A DNA stretch of 64,000 bases from Niastella koreensis GR20-10. Its GTDB lineage: Bacteria > Bacteroidota > Bacteroidia > Chitinophagales > Chitinophagaceae. The notes under the pieces were generated by a model, which saw only the letters and a list, made by a program, of their open reading frames with translations, made no database searches and was not told where the DNA came from. The DNA lies in NCBI RefSeq assembly GCF_000246855.1, contig NC_016609.1, forward strand, positions 5,902,744 through 5,966,743. The letters are read 5' to 3'. Below, piece by piece: positions 30,148 through 35,558 of the stretch. Within the stretch, counting starts at the first letter, position 1; each line of letters begins with the position of its first letter. A program made the position numbers and the translations under genes.

Positions 30148-30609
30148 TTACTTACTGCGGTATTCAATTTCCTCAGCAATGGCCTCAAAATTTTTTATAA
30201 ATGCCCCGGTATCGTTCCTGGATCTAAGATATGCAAGGATGCCAGCTACAGTTTGCCTGGCGTCGTCAAATGTTCTGTTGGTATAATATATGGTCTTTCC
30301 TTTTTGCTCAACAGATGCCATAAATACACCCCAATACTCCTCGTCTGAAATTATTACATGCTTATCATTTGATAGCTTTTCAATTAAAGCAGCAAATAAT
30401 CCATTATCAATTTTATAAAAGAAAACAACAGTTTTATATTTTAGAAATGGATGCTTCTTTACGGCCTTAAGATCTTTATTAGAAAAAATTACGGTCGTAA
30501 ATCCTTTTTCCATTTCGCCGGTATGATCAAATGCTATGAATTTTGCATCAGCCTGGGAATAAGCAAAAGCGCTTACTAAGGAAAACAGGATAGATAAGAT
30601 TATTTTCAT
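30148..30609 (-). CDS. Secreted hypothetical protein
   Basis: 153 residues from the ATG at 30609 (MKIILSILFSLVSAFAYSQ, a clear signal peptide cut after SQ). A longer frame from 30672 would bury that signal. The mature part is a mixed alpha/beta domain (DLKAVKKHPFLKYKTVVFFY, NRTFDDARQTVAGILAYLRS, then IEYRSK). I recognise no family. It lies directly downstream, in the same direction, of the repeated RNA units at 30719-32164 and could be affected by them, but a terminator stands between. Confidence 0.7.
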   Translation of the reverse strand: MKIILSILFSLVSAFAYSQADAKFIAFDHTGEMEKGFTTVIFSNKDLKAVKKHPFLKYKTVVFFYKIDNGLFAALIEKLSNDKHVIISDEEYWGVFMASVEQKGKTIYYTNRTFDDARQTVAGILAYLRSRNDTGAFIKNFEAIAEEIEYRSK

Positions 30610-30718
30610 GTTGCGAAATGATATATAACAGATCATTGCTGTTTGAAGGGCATAGCGCGTGATGAAATGCATTCCCCCTTTAGTGTCAATCCCGACTTGT
30701 CGGGAGGGTTAGGGGGTA

Positions 30719-30861
30719 AAAAAAAGACCCGCTGTAGAAACAGCCGGCCTCTAACGATTGCTTGCCATATGAAAAAAACGTACAAATCTAAGTTTAGGGT
30801 TGAGGGGTTACCTCTGGTAGCTTTTCTTTTTGTTCTCTCTTACCATACTGCTACCGTTGAT
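30719..30861 (-). ncRNA. Candidate structured small RNA, unit 1
   Basis: Read on the minus strand: a -7-like box (TACTTTTA at 30873-30866), then a 5' stem GGTAGC...GCTACC, a small hairpin GAGG-TAACC-CCTC, the invariant block GGCAAGCAATCGTTAGAG (30766-30749), and a terminator hairpin GGCC-G-GCTG / CAGC-G-GGTC with loop TTTCTA followed by T8 (to 30718). The three other units at 31322, 31674 and 32019 share this layout. A plus-strand open frame (30769-30897) is not conserved, as units 2 and 4 stop it at codon 5. Not a family I know. Confidence 0.7.
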
Positions 30862-31020
30862 GATGTAAAAGTAATACGCGCCTCCCTTTCATCATAATGA
30901 GCTTTTCAACGATTTCATTATCTCTAACCTGTATGCCGAATCGCAAAAACAGCTACCAGCCTGCAATAGCCGTATGCTGGTTCATGATCTCCGGCAGCAA
31001 AAAAGAGGCTGAAAATTTCT

Positions 31021-31321
31021 TATAACCCTATGTTTTACAGCCAATTTTGTAACTTGGACTGACTACTACATAAAACAGTTGCATCCAGGATAAAAAATTA
31101 TTGAATCGAAAAAATTATGGCAGCAAATGAACAATTACCGGCCAATCTGCTCATCCGCACATAAAAAGTTGCGCACACTATGCAGGAGTTGATGCAACAA
31201 AAGATGTATACCATATTGGCATCGAATACCAGGAGTTCAAAGATGAGCGACATGAGCAATCTAAAAACAAAGCCTTTGGAAGCATTGATAAATTAGTAGC
31301 AGATCTTTGCGAGGGTATAAA
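31021..31321. other. Spacer between RNA units 1 and 2 with a decayed open frame
   Basis: Plus-strand codons at about 31172-31350 read AHYAGVDATKDVYHIGIEYQ, then EFKDERHEQSK, in an even, coding-like composition without a start codon. An ATG at 31117 opens another frame (MAANEQLPANLLIRT, stop). Together they look like a frameshifted gene remnant. I recognise no family. Confidence 0.3.
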
Positions 31322-31465
31322 AGAAAAAAGACCCACTGTAGAAACAGCCGGCCTCTAACGATTGCTTGCCATATGAAAAAAAGGTAAAAATCTGGGTTAG
31401 GTTGAGGGGTTACCTCTGGTAGTGTCTTCTATTCTTTCTTCACTTACCGTGCTGCTACCGTTGAT
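31322..31465 (-). ncRNA. Candidate structured small RNA, unit 2
   Basis: Same layout as unit 1, minus strand: -7-like TAGTTTTA upstream, 5' stem GGTAG/CTACC, hairpin GAGG/CCTC, invariant block at 31370-31353, terminator hairpin GGCC-G-GCTG / CAGT-G-GGTC with loop TTTCTA, then T6. The G-to-T change in the terminator stem keeps pairing (G-U). Units 1 and 2 are similar over about 300 bases, including 130 bases upstream of the start, so they arose by a duplication. Confidence 0.7.
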
Positions 31466-31673
31466 GATGTAAAACTAATACGTGCTTCTATTTCTTCATA
31501 ACGAGCTTTTCAATGATTTTATTATCGCTAACCTTACTATTGCTTTACAAAACAGGCTACCAGCCTGCAATACACGCATTATTGTTTATGATCTCCGGCA
31601 GTAAACAACAGGATGAAAATGCTTTTTAAACGTCTGTTTTACATCTATTATATAGATTGGTGCATGCCTAAAA

Positions 31674-31808
31674 AGAAAAAAGGTCTTTCCGTTGAAACGG
31701 AACGACCTCTAACGATTGCTTGCCATATGAAAAAAAGTAAAAATCTATTTAATGTGAAGCACCTGCTTCGTAGTAACTCGTCTTCTTCTTACTCACTTAC
31801 TGCACTTT
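31674..31808 (-). ncRNA. Candidate structured small RNA, unit 3 (most divergent)
   Basis: The terminator stem is GGTC-G-TTCCG / CGGAA-A-GACC with loop TTTCAA and then T6: sequence almost wholly different from the other units but with the same length class, loop type and mismatch position. The middle hairpin is GAAGC-AGGT-GCTTC, and the 5' stem is AGTAA/TTACT. The invariant block (31724-31707) is unchanged. The -7-like box is not evident here, so this unit may be silent. Confidence 0.65.
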
Positions 31809-32018
31809 CTTATAACGAGCTATTGCTTCTTTTTATTATACTTAACGCTGCGATAATTTTAAATGTCTTTTTCACACCTATATGCATTACCTAAGATGCC
31901 GCTTTTCTTTAGATGGTTGCATACCGTTGAAAAAGTTCACAGTTCTGAGTTGCCGCGACGAAGCCTTTGCCTTTTGCCCTTTGCCTCCACCTCATGGTAA
32001 ACCATGAGTCCCATGTTA

Positions 32019-32164
32019 AAAAAAAAGACCGGCTGTAGAAACAGCTGGCCTCTAACGATTGCTTGCCATATGAAAAAAAGGTAAAAATCTTTTGAAGTGG
32101 AGTGTTTGCTCCTGGTAGCTCTTCTCTCGTTGCCTTATTGCCTCGCTGCCGCTACCGTTGATTC
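32019..32164 (-). ncRNA. Candidate structured small RNA, unit 4
   Basis: Upstream it has a perfect Bacteroidota -7 box (TATATTTG at 32177-32170). Then, on the minus strand, 5' stem GGTAGC/GCTACC, hairpin GGAG-CAAACA-CTCC, invariant block (32067-32050) and terminator hairpin GGCC-A-GCTG / CAGC-C-GGTC with loop TTTCTA, followed by T9. It is the unit nearest to the divergent metal-efflux operon. Confidence 0.7.
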
Positions 32165-32491
32165 TGATGCAAATATAAAACGCCTTCCCACGCTGTCATA
32201 ATCACGTTTTTCACCCTTTCATTATGCCAAACCGGGCTAAACAGTAACAAAACCCTTACTCCTACTAGGTTTCACCATATTTCCGCCATGGTTTCCAACG
32301 ATAAAACGCCGTGACCAACCACCCCCTCCTTCACTTTTCCTTAACAAATATTAACAAGCTAAACCGGAAAACTACTGCAATAAGTGTTTGAATTACGGCT
32401 ATCGGGAACTACTCACTACTCACAACGCCTCTCACCTTGTAAAATGCTTGTTAAGAGATCAGTATATCCTTTAACAACTGACTTAAGTTTA

Positions 32492-32499
32492 TATTTTTG
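32492..32499 (+). promoter_or_regulatory. TAnnTTTG -7 box ahead of the efflux-leading gene
   Basis: TATTTTTG fits the Bacteroidota housekeeping -7 box (TAnnTTTG). It ends only 7 bases before the ATG at 32507, so the transcript would be leaderless or nearly so, or the box is coincidental. No clear -33 TTTG box is present. Confidence 0.4.
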
Positions 32500-32506
32500 C
32501 CTGGTC

Positions 32507-32890
32507 ATGCTAAAAAAGTTACTGGCATTCATATTATTGTTCGCTCACCTGAACACATCCATGTTCATTCCACAGATGGATGAAGAGGTGGACGTGTACG
32601 ATGGCGCCGGTAACCAGGTAGATGATATCAACACCCTGATAGAGTATATCGACCAGGATGTACTGGGCCATTCCGATAGCACGCCCGAAGATGAGGACGA
32701 TGATACCAGCCGTCCCCTGCATGTGATAAAGATCGTCGACTACAGCTATCATCCCTTCTTCGAAGAAGCACAAACAAAAGATTCAATCAAAAAAGAACCC
32801 GCCATAGTTTTCACCGGCTATATTGAACATAAACCCACAGCCGGTTTTACTAACATTTTGCTGCCACCACCGAAACAGGTAAAAGCTTAA
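32507..32890 (+). CDS. Small secreted acidic protein leading the metal-efflux operon
   Basis: 127 residues from the ATG at 32507 (MLKKLLAFILLFAHLNTSMF, a signal peptide). The mature part is strongly acidic (EEVDVYDGAGNQVDD, STPEDEDDDTS) and has His residues (HVIKIVDYSYHPFFEE) that could bind metal. I recall similar small proteins preceding CusCBA-type operons in Bacteroidota; the function is not known. A hairpin (32946-32982) separates it from the tolC-like gene 300 bases downstream. A periplasmic metal-handling role is inference. Confidence 0.7.
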   Translation: MLKKLLAFILLFAHLNTSMFIPQMDEEVDVYDGAGNQVDDINTLIEYIDQDVLGHSDSTPEDEDDDTSRPLHVIKIVDYSYHPFFEEAQTKDSIKKEPAIVFTGYIEHKPTAGFTNILLPPPKQVKA

Positions 32891-32945
32891 AGGCGAAAGG
32901 TAAAAGCATAAATGTAATTGCCTTTATCGTAAATCACTATTTAAC

Positions 32946-32982
32946 GCAAAGTAAAACTGCCATCAGGCAGTGTTTTGCTTTG
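32946..32982 (+). terminator. Terminator hairpin after the small acidic protein gene
   Basis: AAAACTGCC (32953-32961) pairs with GGCAGTGTTTT (32966-32976) around ATCA, and outer bases (GCAAAG / CTTTG) extend the stem. Transcripts of the leading gene probably stop or attenuate here before the efflux genes. Confidence 0.7.
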
Positions 32983-33038
32983 TGCTTTAACCTTTTTGGC
33001 TTTTGCCTTGGGCTTTAGGCTTTAGCCTTTGGCCTTGT
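32983..33038. repeat. Heptamer tract, GCYTTNN type
   Basis: About seven imperfect 7-base units (ggctttt, gccttgg, gctttag, gctttag, cctttgg) in the gap ahead of the outer-membrane efflux gene, with complementary words (aaaggcgaaaggtaaaagc) at 32888-32908. Same type as the tracts at 35590 and 57511. Confidence 0.65.
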
Positions 33039-33101
33039 ATTATACACCCGAAAATTTCGTAACAAATTCCCAAAGAGACCGCACCGCTTGATAAAGGCAG
33101 T

Positions 33102-33109
33102 TATATTTG
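33102..33109 (+). promoter_or_regulatory. TAnnTTTG -7 box of the efflux operon
   Basis: TATATTTG, a perfect match to the Bacteroidota -7 box, 80 bases before the start of the tolC-like gene. It is directly followed by an AT palindrome (taatatattacatatata) that could be an operator. No well-placed -33 box. Confidence 0.5.
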
Positions 33110-33189
33110 TAATATATTACATATATACCCGCCTTGGTTTAGCCTGTTCTGAAACCCTATAAGATCAGTTAATTCAAATAAACGCTACA

Positions 33190-34470
33190 ATGAAAATCGC
33201 CGACTTCAAACGATTCGTGATCGTTTTTGCCTGCGCGTTTTATTCTGTTCAGCAGAGTAAGGCCCAGGATACGGTACGGATCTCGTTACCCGATGCGGAA
33301 AAACAGTTCACTGCCAAAAACCTCCAATTGATGGCAGAAAAGTACAACATCGACATCGCCCGCGCCCAGGTATTGCAAGCCCGGGTTTACAACAATCCAA
33401 ACCTGCAGCTGGTAGGCAACATTTACAATCCCGACCAAAAGAAATGGTTCGATGTAAGCAATGCCACCGGTGAGTACATCGCCAACGTGCAACAATTGAT
33501 TATCCTTGCCGGAAAACGCAACAAGCAGATCAAGCTGGCCCAAACAAATGTGCTGATGGCCGAGAACCGGTTTTACGACCTGCTGCGCACCCTGCGTTTT
33601 ACCCTGCACAGCGATTTTTACCAGGCCGGTTTTCTGCAACAGGCCATCGCTGCGTACCAAACACCTATCGCCTCCCTGCAAAAGCTCACCGCCAATTACG
33701 GCGAGCTGCAACAAAAAGGCGTGATCACCCTCAAGGAAGTGGTGCGTGTTAAATCGCTTTTATACAACCTGCAAACAGAACAAACCTCCCTGCAAAATCA
33801 ACTGAACGATGTAGAGGCCGAATTGCAGTTGCTGTTGCAGAACAATAAAGCCTGGTTTGTACCCGACATTACCGTTTCGGCCCCCAACATGGGCTCTATT
33901 CGTCAGTACCAGTTGCCCACCCTTATCGACAGCGCGTATGCCAACCGGTACGATCTGCAACTGGCCAACAATTCATTGGTGTATAGCCAGCAGAATTTAA
34001 GTCTGCAAAAAGCCATCGCTGTACCCGACCTCATGAGCGGCGTACAGTTTGATAAACGGGGTAGCTTCGTAAACAACGCCACCTTCTTTTCCGTGGCTAT
34101 GGACCTTCCCTTTTTTAACCGCAACCAGGGCAATATAAAAGCCGCGAAGATCGCCGTTGATCAAAGCAATACCGCCCTTACCCAACAACGCCTATCGGTA
34201 GAGAATGAAGTGCAACAGGCCTATGGCAAAGCTTTGAACACCGAGAAAATGCTCAAGACCATCGACCCTAGTTTTCAAAGCGACTTCGACAAACTGCTGA
34301 AAAGCATCACCGATAATTTTGAAAAGAAAAACATCAGCTTACTCGAGTTCACCGATTTCTATCAATCCTATAAAGAAAATGTGCTGCAGTGGAATCAATT
34401 GCAGAACGATCGCATCCAGGCTGTAGAAACGTTGAACTTCTCTATAGGAAAACCCATCGTAAACCTCTAA
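33190..34470 (+). CDS. TolC-family outer-membrane efflux protein (CusC/CzcC-like)
   Basis: A 426-residue outer-membrane channel subunit with a signal peptide (cut after SKAQ, about residue 25) and the two OEP domains rich in long helices (LMAEKYNIDIARAQVLQARV, VRVKSLLYNLQTEQTSLQNQ, QQRLSVENEVQQAYGKALNT). It is the first gene of a three-gene RND operon with 11 bases to the adaptor gene. Substrate is taken from the pump (see 35704), a divalent or monovalent heavy metal. Confidence 0.92.
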   Translation: MKIADFKRFVIVFACAFYSVQQSKAQDTVRISLPDAEKQFTAKNLQLMAEKYNIDIARAQVLQARVYNNPNLQLVGNIYNPDQKKWFDVSNATGEYIANVQQLIILAGKRNKQIKLAQTNVLMAENRFYDLLRTLRFTLHSDFYQAGFLQQAIAAYQTPIASLQKLTANYGELQQKGVITLKEVVRVKSLLYNLQTEQTSLQNQLNDVEAELQLLLQNNKAWFVPDITVSAPNMGSIRQYQLPTLIDSAYANRYDLQLANNSLVYSQQNLSLQKAIAVPDLMSGVQFDKRGSFVNNATFFSVAMDLPFFNRNQGNIKAAKIAVDQSNTALTQQRLSVENEVQQAYGKALNTEKMLKTIDPSFQSDFDKLLKSITDNFEKKNISLLEFTDFYQSYKENVLQWNQLQNDRIQAVETLNFSIGKPIVNL

Positions 34471-34481
34471 ATAAAGAAATC

Positions 34482-35558
34482 ATGATCAGCTATAAATCAT
34501 TCATCATTCCCGCTTTCGTTTGTATTACCGCCGCCGTTGCCTGTGGCCGGCCCGAGGCCGCTACGCCAAAGGAGAATGGCACGCTGGACAGTGTTATCCG
34601 CAATGTAACTACTGCCCCGGTAACTGCTGAAGAAGAAACAGACTATACCAAACTGAATGGTAAAATTCAGGCCAATGAAGACCACCAGGCAAAAGTATAC
34701 GCCCTGGCCAGTGGTAAAATAAAAAGTGTGAACGTGGCCCTGGGCGATAAAGTGCAGAAGGGGCAAACCCTGGCCGTGTTGCAAAGTATGGAAGTGGCTG
34801 CCAACAGCAACGATGTGGCGCTGGCCGAAGCCAATGTAACCATCACCAAGAAAAACATGGAAAGCACCAAGGACCTGTACGATGGCAACCTGGCCACCGA
34901 ACGCGATTACCTGAGTGCCAAAGTGGAATATAATAAAGCATTGAGTGAACTGAATAAAGCCAAACAGGTACAGAGCATCACCGGCGGATCAAACTCGCTG
35001 TACGAATTGCATGCGCCGCTCACCGGTTATGTGATCGAGAAAAACATCACCGCCAACTCGGAAGTACGGCAGGATAACAACAACCAGCTGTTCACCGTGG
35101 CCGATCTTAGCAACGTATGGGTGATTGCCAATGTATACGAGAGTGATATCAGCAAAATTCACCTGGGTGATGAAGTAACGGTAACTACCCTCACCGATCC
35201 CAACAAGCCATATACCGGCAAAATAGACAAGATCTACAACGTGCTGGACCCTGCTACCCGCACCATGAAAGTGCGCATCAGCATGCCTAACCCCAACAAT
35301 GAGCTGATGCCCGAAATGTTTGTGACCGTGAAAGTGAACGGCAAACCAACCGGCAACATGCTGAGCATTCCTTCGCAGGCGATCGTACTCGACGACAGCA
35401 AAAACTTTGTGATCGTTAAAGACACCGGTGGCTTACACATAAAAGAAGTGCAACTGATAAAAAGGGTGGATGCCAAAGCCTATGTTACCGGGTTGAAGCA
35501 AGGAGATCAGGTGGTAACAAATTCACAAGTATTCATCTATCAAGCGCTTTCTGAATAA
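34482..35558 (+). CDS. RND efflux periplasmic adaptor (CusB/CzcB-like)
   Basis: 358 residues from the ATG at 34482 (MISYKSFIIPAFVCITAAVAC, lipobox Cys 21); the longer frame from 34389 overlaps tolC and is not used. Membrane fusion protein layout: barrel-sandwich half (KVYALASGKIKSVNVALGDK), helical hairpin (about 110-170; ALAEANVTITKKNMESTKDL), second half (LHAPLTGYVIEKNI), beta-barrel (VWVIANVYESDISKIHLGDE) and membrane-proximal domain. It links the pump to the outer-membrane channel. Confidence 0.92.
   Translation: MISYKSFIIPAFVCITAAVACGRPEAATPKENGTLDSVIRNVTTAPVTAEEETDYTKLNGKIQANEDHQAKVYALASGKIKSVNVALGDKVQKGQTLAVLQSMEVAANSNDVALAEANVTITKKNMESTKDLYDGNLATERDYLSAKVEYNKALSELNKAKQVQSITGGSNSLYELHAPLTGYVIEKNITANSEVRQDNNNQLFTVADLSNVWVIANVYESDISKIHLGDEVTVTTLTDPNKPYTGKIDKIYNVLDPATRTMKVRISMPNPNNELMPEMFVTVKVNGKPTGNMLSIPSQAIVLDDSKNFVIVKDTGGLHIKEVQLIKRVDAKAYVTGLKQGDQVVTNSQVFIYQALSE

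Follow-up and report, generated by a model that had tools for sequence, protein, structure and literature searches.

Trans-acting small RNA (sRNA) control in the Bacteroidota is, as far as the literature searched goes, documented mainly in Bacteroides. According to the parts of the source papers drawn on here, GibS (RF04182) is a single-copy sRNA with a second seed, R2 (PMC7366714, PMC11697453), whose 5' seed pairs in trans with start-codon regions (PMC7366714), and FopS (RF04319) is a multicopy family, with 14 paralogs in B. thetaiotaomicron, that also acts by pairing with start-codon regions, includes a 3'-UTR-derived member, has copies in phage contigs, belongs to an Hfq-free host and is bound by the RRM protein RbpB (PMC11697453).

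The window, which is the whole 64,000-nt stretch of Niastella koreensis DNA that was analysed, carries four minus-strand units that very probably represent a real and apparently undescribed Chitinophagaceae sRNA family, predicted from sequence. The sequence-only reading had proposed an undescribed family of structured sRNAs, and at the level of sequence this is supported by the absence of an Rfam match, by covariation, by -7 boxes and by block variants that make a peptide unlikely. The word 'undescribed' refers to searches of the open-access literature and of Rfam 15: no Rfam family reached its gathering score, and far sub-threshold matches were all that appeared up to an E-value of 10; among the open-access papers listed for Chitinophagaceae sRNAs and for paralogous Bacteroidota sRNAs, none dealt with the family to judge from title and displayed abstract text; and sequence terms retrieved from open-access papers one unrelated plant paper and nothing else.

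The closest known kind of sRNA is that of Bacteroides FopS and GibS, which the window family resembles in predicted anatomy. Like FopS it is multicopy (11 places in the host genome) and includes 3'-UTR members (46 of 193 distinct copies follow a lipoprotein-like ORF); both families also have copies in viral contigs and a host in which Hfq is lacking, and in both UUUUUCAUA lies in a conserved stretch ahead of a terminator. A hairpin of at least seven pairs stands behind this stretch, hereafter the block, in 191 of the 193 copies and a T-run in 171, and the block is predicted to be paired in many folds. In contrast to FopS, the letters after UUUUUCAUA are not alike, additional 5' stems and a different promoter region are present, and the conserved stretch lies ahead of the terminator in mostly longer RNAs, whereas the FopS seed is at the 5' end. 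The R1' seed TTTTTCATAGTATTAGAT near the 5' end was not found in the window family; only TTTTTCATA is shared, near the 3' end of the long units and near the 5' end of a minimal form. The FopS model (cut-off 56 bits) had no match up to E 10 in window positions 30600-32400 and none in the host, and not one of 198 phylum genomes had a match above the cut-off; R1, a covariance model built from 41 copies of the window family, and the FopS model did not recognise each other, and eight loci with the FopS motif had no R1 match. By the Rfam definition the window family falls outside FopS, and it would work like FopS if the antisense reading discussed below is right. As to GibS, its printed consensus begins GUGUUUUUCAUAG (starting as GUGUUUUUCAUAGUAUUAGAU), and its model (cut-off 115 bits) scored at best 21.4 bits (E 4.1) on the window units. 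The LhrC sRNAs of Listeria, which are tandem near-identical copies with repeated short binding motifs and C/U-rich loops that bind Shine-Dalgarno sites, were set beside the window family by description alone; they are analogous in their tandem copies and differ in their C/U-rich motifs and in phylum.

The four units and their promoters

The four units would be paralogous genes of one Chitinophagaceae sRNA family. An 18-base block reported as invariant among them is indeed common to all (minus strand, 30749-30766, 31353-31370, 31707-31724 and 32050-32067 in units 1 to 4), and the invariant stretch is longer than 18 bases, TTTTTTTCATATGGCAAGCAATCGTTAGAG being present in four of four. Together with a T-run it occupies 30749-30778 in unit 1 (R1 match at 30707-30796, 87.7 bits), 31353-31382 in unit 2 (31311-31400, 89.7 bits), 31707-31736 in unit 3 (31663-31754, 86 bits) and 32050-32079 in unit 4 (32008-32097, 88.5 bits), all on the minus strand. 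Each block is followed, as had been claimed, by a terminator hairpin and T-run, read off the minus-strand sequence at 30718-30749, 31322-31353, 31674-31707 and 32019-32050, respectively; the stems are of the types given earlier, TTCCG/CGGAA in unit 3 and CTG/CAG in the other three units, and a mismatch interrupts them at an equal position. The predicted 5' part of the unit 1 RNA (30779-30864, minus strand) contains a GGTAGC/GCTACC stem and a GAGG/CCTC hairpin. The array adjoins an ORF without a Pfam match and efflux genes of the OEP and HlyD types (window positions 32384-35558), and relatives of these efflux genes adjoin arrays of units at three further loci (L097, L098 and L099).

Minus-strand transcription of units 1, 2 and 4 from a shared, probably regulated promoter is strongly indicated by the sequence, and each of these transcripts would end at its own intrinsic terminator, which is present as sequence. 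The TAnnTTTG box noticed before in unit 4 is found as TATATTTG at 32177-32170, and the boxes of units 1 and 2 are TACTTTTA and TAGTTTTA. The -7 boxes with their conserved upstream promoter regions extend, on the minus strand, over 30865-30998 in unit 1 (TACTTTTAC, weight-matrix score 78.9), 31469-31602 in unit 2 (TAGTTTTAC, 92.1) and 32169-32302 in unit 4 (TATATTTGC, 95.0), all three being training members of the matrix. By the motif rule used for all copies, unit 3 has no -7 box upstream; about 25 nt that in its paralogs separate the -54 element from the 5' stem are absent from it by eye, and for this reason it may be without a promoter of its own.

The -7 box (TAnnTTTR-Y) is present 60-200 nt upstream in 104 of the 193 distinct copies, compared with 16 in shuffles. 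When promoters are aligned on this box, conservation extends to about -125: TT[TA][GA]nn[AG]TnAT[AG]A occurs precisely at position -54 in 37 of the 41 promoters of Niastella type and in 23 of 59 others (0.06 and 0.24 in shuffles), and AAGGGTTTT mostly at -80. Because they share this multi-element upstream region, the predicted sRNAs look co-regulated, and a shared promoter should make the inducing signal findable. A weight matrix made from 100 of these promoters was run over five unit loci and over 2.06 Mb of host DNA, which comprised the window and 100 stretches of 20 kb each; promoters with a downstream block, most of them training members, scored 45-112, two other positive matches scored 65 and 28, and the next scored -1.3. 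The match scoring 65 precedes a 138-aa secreted-looking protein, without a block; the match scoring 28 precedes a gene that we take to be leuA-like, and a block-like terminator with AATAGCAAGCAAC in its loop lies between. These two blockless promoter loci are within host positions 2530001-2550000 (L394, minus strand) and 100001-120000 (L372, plus strand).

Compensatory changes in three stems, inferred before from the four units, also hold in a larger set: in 34 long forms of the same genus, both partners have changed in 6 of 20 pairs, with at least one such pair per stem, compared with a shuffled mean of 2.3, and none of 500 shuffles was as high. Pairing cells amount to 93.3% in these 34 sequences and fall to 32-48% when the partner is slid by 1-3 columns; the number of pair types in them was not above that of shuffles (468 of 500). 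In the 5' stem, some rows of the alignment are shifted out of register. Of 40 long forms, 34 have GGTAGC/GCTACC or a near variant as their 5' stem. In the six that do not, the 5' stem is different yet paired in L001, L104 and both forms at L098, and doubtful in L002 and L041. The covariation suggests that the 5' stems are under selection, and they may stabilise the RNA. A self-masking switch, in which 5' AACGGTAGC would pair with GCAATCGTT of the block, was considered and rejected: eight of nine pairs can form in 32 of the 40 long forms and merely five or six in the six forms with a differing local 5' stem, so the masking is probably a by-product.

These features also bear on a reading in which the copies have no function as RNA and represent a DNA-level site or a mobile or selfish repeat. 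Their multicopy and partly tandem occurrence and their presence in a few viral contigs speak for it; promoter elements at fixed spacing, covarying stems, an array beside the same efflux genes at L097, L098 and L099 and an equal 3'-UTR position in many genera speak against it, and we regard this explanation as very improbable.

Copies in the host and in other taxa

The four copies in the window are part of a larger set in the host. In the host genome (9.03 Mb, one contig) the 18-mer has nine exact occurrences, one with one mismatch and one with two, i.e. 11 places, against none for the reversed 18-mer at up to two mismatches. A covariance-model search, which the sequence-only reading had suggested as a check, gave 10 strong R1 matches in the host (E < 1e-9), the weakest at 64 bits, after which the next match drops to 36 bits.

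Strong matches are nearly confined to Chitinophagaceae. A 20-mer, with up to two mismatches, is present in 45 of 99 genomes, the host being one of them (all 10 of the host genus, 34 of 50 from other genera of the family and 1 of 39 from other families of the order), and its reversed control in none of the 99. Among 198 genomes of the phylum, 25 had an R1 match at E <= 0.1; matches at E < 1e-6 were found in five of the eight genomes of the host family, and the best match elsewhere had an E-value of 7e-4. The weak matches with E-values between 7e-4 and 0.1 that 20 genomes from outside the family gave were discarded as members, the intact module not being kept at the 15 loci that were read (L081-L095). 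The exact 23-mer occurs in at least 120 stretches of a named sequence collection; the 80 matches listed are Niastella, Niabella, Segetibacter, Hydrotalea, Pinibacter and other Chitinophagaceae, together with metagenome-assembled genomes labelled more broadly or otherwise (for example Sphingobacteriales, one Flavobacterium and one Pedobacter). The invariance of the block is partly built in by the pattern searches that retrieved the copies; among 82 copies that came from neither the 23-mer scan nor the model search, the 20-mer is exact in 77 although two mismatches were allowed, and TTTTCAT, which lies ahead of it and outside the search pattern, is present in 79. A collection of phage records gave no match, and the six plasmid records with an 18-base match, which is located in a Synechococcus catalase gene, were dismissed.

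Settings of the 3' module

The conserved unit is a 3' module, consisting of the block and the terminator, that is more conserved than the stems. It is predicted to end sRNAs of about 140 nt, a minimal form of about 50 nt, the 3' UTRs of lipoprotein genes and a few phage transcripts. In the 46 copies mentioned above, an ORF of 52-76 aa of the type MKKLLFVLAIGAFAACN...VDTTAKK-stop lies 9-94 nt ahead of the module; it is lipoprotein-like by its signal and cysteine, rich in Ala, Thr and Asp, and often ends in lysines (e.g. L004, L113 and L115), and the one such protein submitted to Pfam had no match over the cut-off. This position behind the lipoprotein-like ORF recurs in many genera, and a looser count, admitting any ORF of at least 60 aa, finds one ahead of the module in 52 of the 193 copies. 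The minimal form is a TTTGAG variant, one copy of which is present in each of 10 genomes of the same genus; at both loci that were read (L010 and L112), TACATTTG is directly ahead of it, and since the -7 box thus directly precedes the block, the minimal RNA would be little more than block and terminator. Additional degenerate block copies were seen by eye inside the RNA in several genera. Viral contigs contain the 18-mer in six cases, five of them distinct, in which the block follows a small phage ORF in four of five and is followed by a hairpin in five of five by eye and in two of five by a strict terminator finder.

Two other readings of the block were rejected. As a peptide (ATG GCA AGC AAT CGT TAG) it is unlikely because block variants lose the start or the stop, with AGG, TTG or ATA in place of ATG or TTTG in place of TTAG. 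As a general terminator signal, TTTTTCATA precedes a terminator at 2 of 113 occurrences in the host and 1 of 71 in other species, a count that left out the known block copies and is like that of permuted words.

The module might still be a 3'-end stabiliser or special terminator for sRNAs, one lipoprotein mRNA and phage mRNAs, with no targets in trans. The hairpin that always stands behind the block (at least seven pairs in 191 of 193) would suit such a role, as would the sites in 3' UTRs (46 of 193), behind a tRNA-like gene and behind phage ORFs; against it, TTTTTCATA is not enriched ahead of terminators, the sRNA copies have a shared promoter of their own, and a genome of 9 Mb with about 10 strong copies argues that the module is not a general terminator. 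We consider this explanation quite unlikely.

The host tRNA-like gene (L062/L296, about 1195291-1195359, minus strand) is followed by TTTTTCATATGGCAAGCAATC, which runs into an ATTC microsatellite, as if this copy of the module had eroded or decayed.

Possible mode of action and relation to FopS

The best explanation offered here, to which we assign about an even chance as the family's way of working, is start-codon antisense. The block UUUUUCAUAUGGCAAGCAAUCGUUAGAG would be an antisense seed, in which UUUUUCAU would pair with AUGAAAAA at start codons and the remaining letters would bind the leader or the codons that come first, so that translation of mRNAs for exported proteins would be blocked; the targets would plausibly be glycan-uptake genes, as with FopS and GibS in Bacteroides. 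More speculatively, many copies may raise the dose, lipoprotein 3' UTRs may add copies, and phages may bring in the module so as to exploit or upset the circuit. If this is true, the presence in Chitinophagaceae of a second sRNA family with many copies would suggest that multicopy start-codon antisense is a wider habit of the phylum, members of which, like the host, can be without Hfq; the phage copies and the one recurrent lipoprotein 3' UTR offer entry points, and the minimal member of about 50 nt makes the seed directly testable.

The antisense reading is based on the FopS/GibS precedent and on a weak excess in start regions of the host that was not reproduced in other species. The 20-nt core was compared with start regions (-40 to +30) by an ungapped stacking score, gene starts being called crudely by taking the first ATG in each ORF that reached 110 aa. 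In set A (868 host genes) the mean of the top 1% was -20.06 compared with -17.41 for shuffled cores, and 9 of 300 shuffles were as strong (a second set of shuffles gave 11 of 300, and an initial run gave 0 of 100); in set B (533 further host genes) 23 of 300 and 33 of 300 were. Inner gene windows of the host gave no signal (141 of 300 and 187 of 300), and in set C, from other species, 86 of 300 shuffles were as strong without two genes that overlap the sRNA itself and 1 of 300 with them. When the sets were pooled, 12 of 300 shuffles were as strong in the top 1% and 51 of 300 in the top 5%, with no shift of the mean. The positional profile did not peak clearly at the start codon and rose higher in some upstream bins; the ratio of strong sites in start regions to those in inner windows of the host was 2.18 compared with 0.91 for shuffles (0 of 40 as high). 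GCCAT before ATG was seen five times in the host against 1.3 expected (rank 18 of 591) and was not raised in set C. Part of the complement is similar to the Leu and Ala codons of signal peptides, which could mimic it. In plain counts of Pfam assignments, proteins of glycan uptake or cleavage make up nine of the best 30 predicted targets (two SusC-like, SusE, GH92, GH88, GH76, GH67, pectinesterase and RhaT), against four of 30 control genes (SusD, SusC-like, GH28 and FGGY kinase), SusC-like proteins numbering two and one, respectively; for glycan-uptake targets these predicted pairings are suggestive. Pairing with rRNA was rejected, the best duplex with the host rRNA operon scoring -19.4 compared with a shuffled mean of -22.1.

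Further considerations count on both sides. The minimal form (L010 and L112), in which a 5' seed is followed by the terminator, and elements in Chitinophagaceae that may bridge to FopS speak for the antisense seed; invariance of at least 23 letters, which exceeds what a seed usually needs, minimum-energy folds in which the block or its U-run is paired in many of the 40 long forms, and the failure of the R1 and FopS models to recognise each other speak against it.

A serious rival to the seed is a protein-binding or 3'-stabilising module. The block may be the site of an RNA-binding protein, such as an RRM protein, that is either titrated by the RNAs or acts as a 3'-end chaperone in a host that lacks Hfq, with the variable 5' part doing the targeting. 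Near-invariance of the block, the degenerate additional copies inside RNAs of several genera, the 12 places with RRM_1 and no Hfq match in the host, and the binding of FopS by RbpB in the part of PMC11697453 cited above would all accord with this; on the other hand, the 5' part, although variable among long forms of the same genus, yielded no targets and is nearly absent from the minimal form, and no protein was tied to the block in the analysis. We rate this protein-site explanation as possible but doubtful. Seven of the 12 RRM_1 places are clustered at two host loci, 4024111-4026044 and 4337541-4340437 (L298 and L299).

An extension of the antisense reading is more tentative and in our estimate rather unlikely: the module would be a plug-in, a near-invariant seed with terminator placed on sRNAs, a lipoprotein mRNA and phage transcripts, that sums promoter, lipoprotein and phage inputs into one seed dose repressing glycan-uptake genes across Chitinophagaceae, as the sister of the FopS solution. 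The family and FopS may have a common origin, although the nine letters that they share, five of them U, are weak evidence for it. Candidate bridges within Chitinophagaceae are GTGTTTTTCATAGGTTA with a terminator, in the host and at L473, and TTTTTCATAGGATAAGGTTTAAGG with a terminator at L485, which scores 36.4 bits to FopS, below the cut-off. A broader search with GTGTTTTTCATAG, which hit 42 of the 198 phylum genomes, was set aside, as a clear element with terminator was seen only in L473 among the 12 loci read (L472-L483). Viral contigs contain 66 stretches with TTTTTCATAGTATTAGAT; of 46 distinct ones, 33 are followed by a terminator and 14 lie just after TAnnTTTG, and the four loci submitted to Rfam matched FopS at 68.8-77 bits (cut-off 56). 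At two viral loci, L302 (68.8 bits to FopS) and L354, TTTTTCATAGTATTAGAT is located just behind what by eye appears to be the 3' end of a tRNA.
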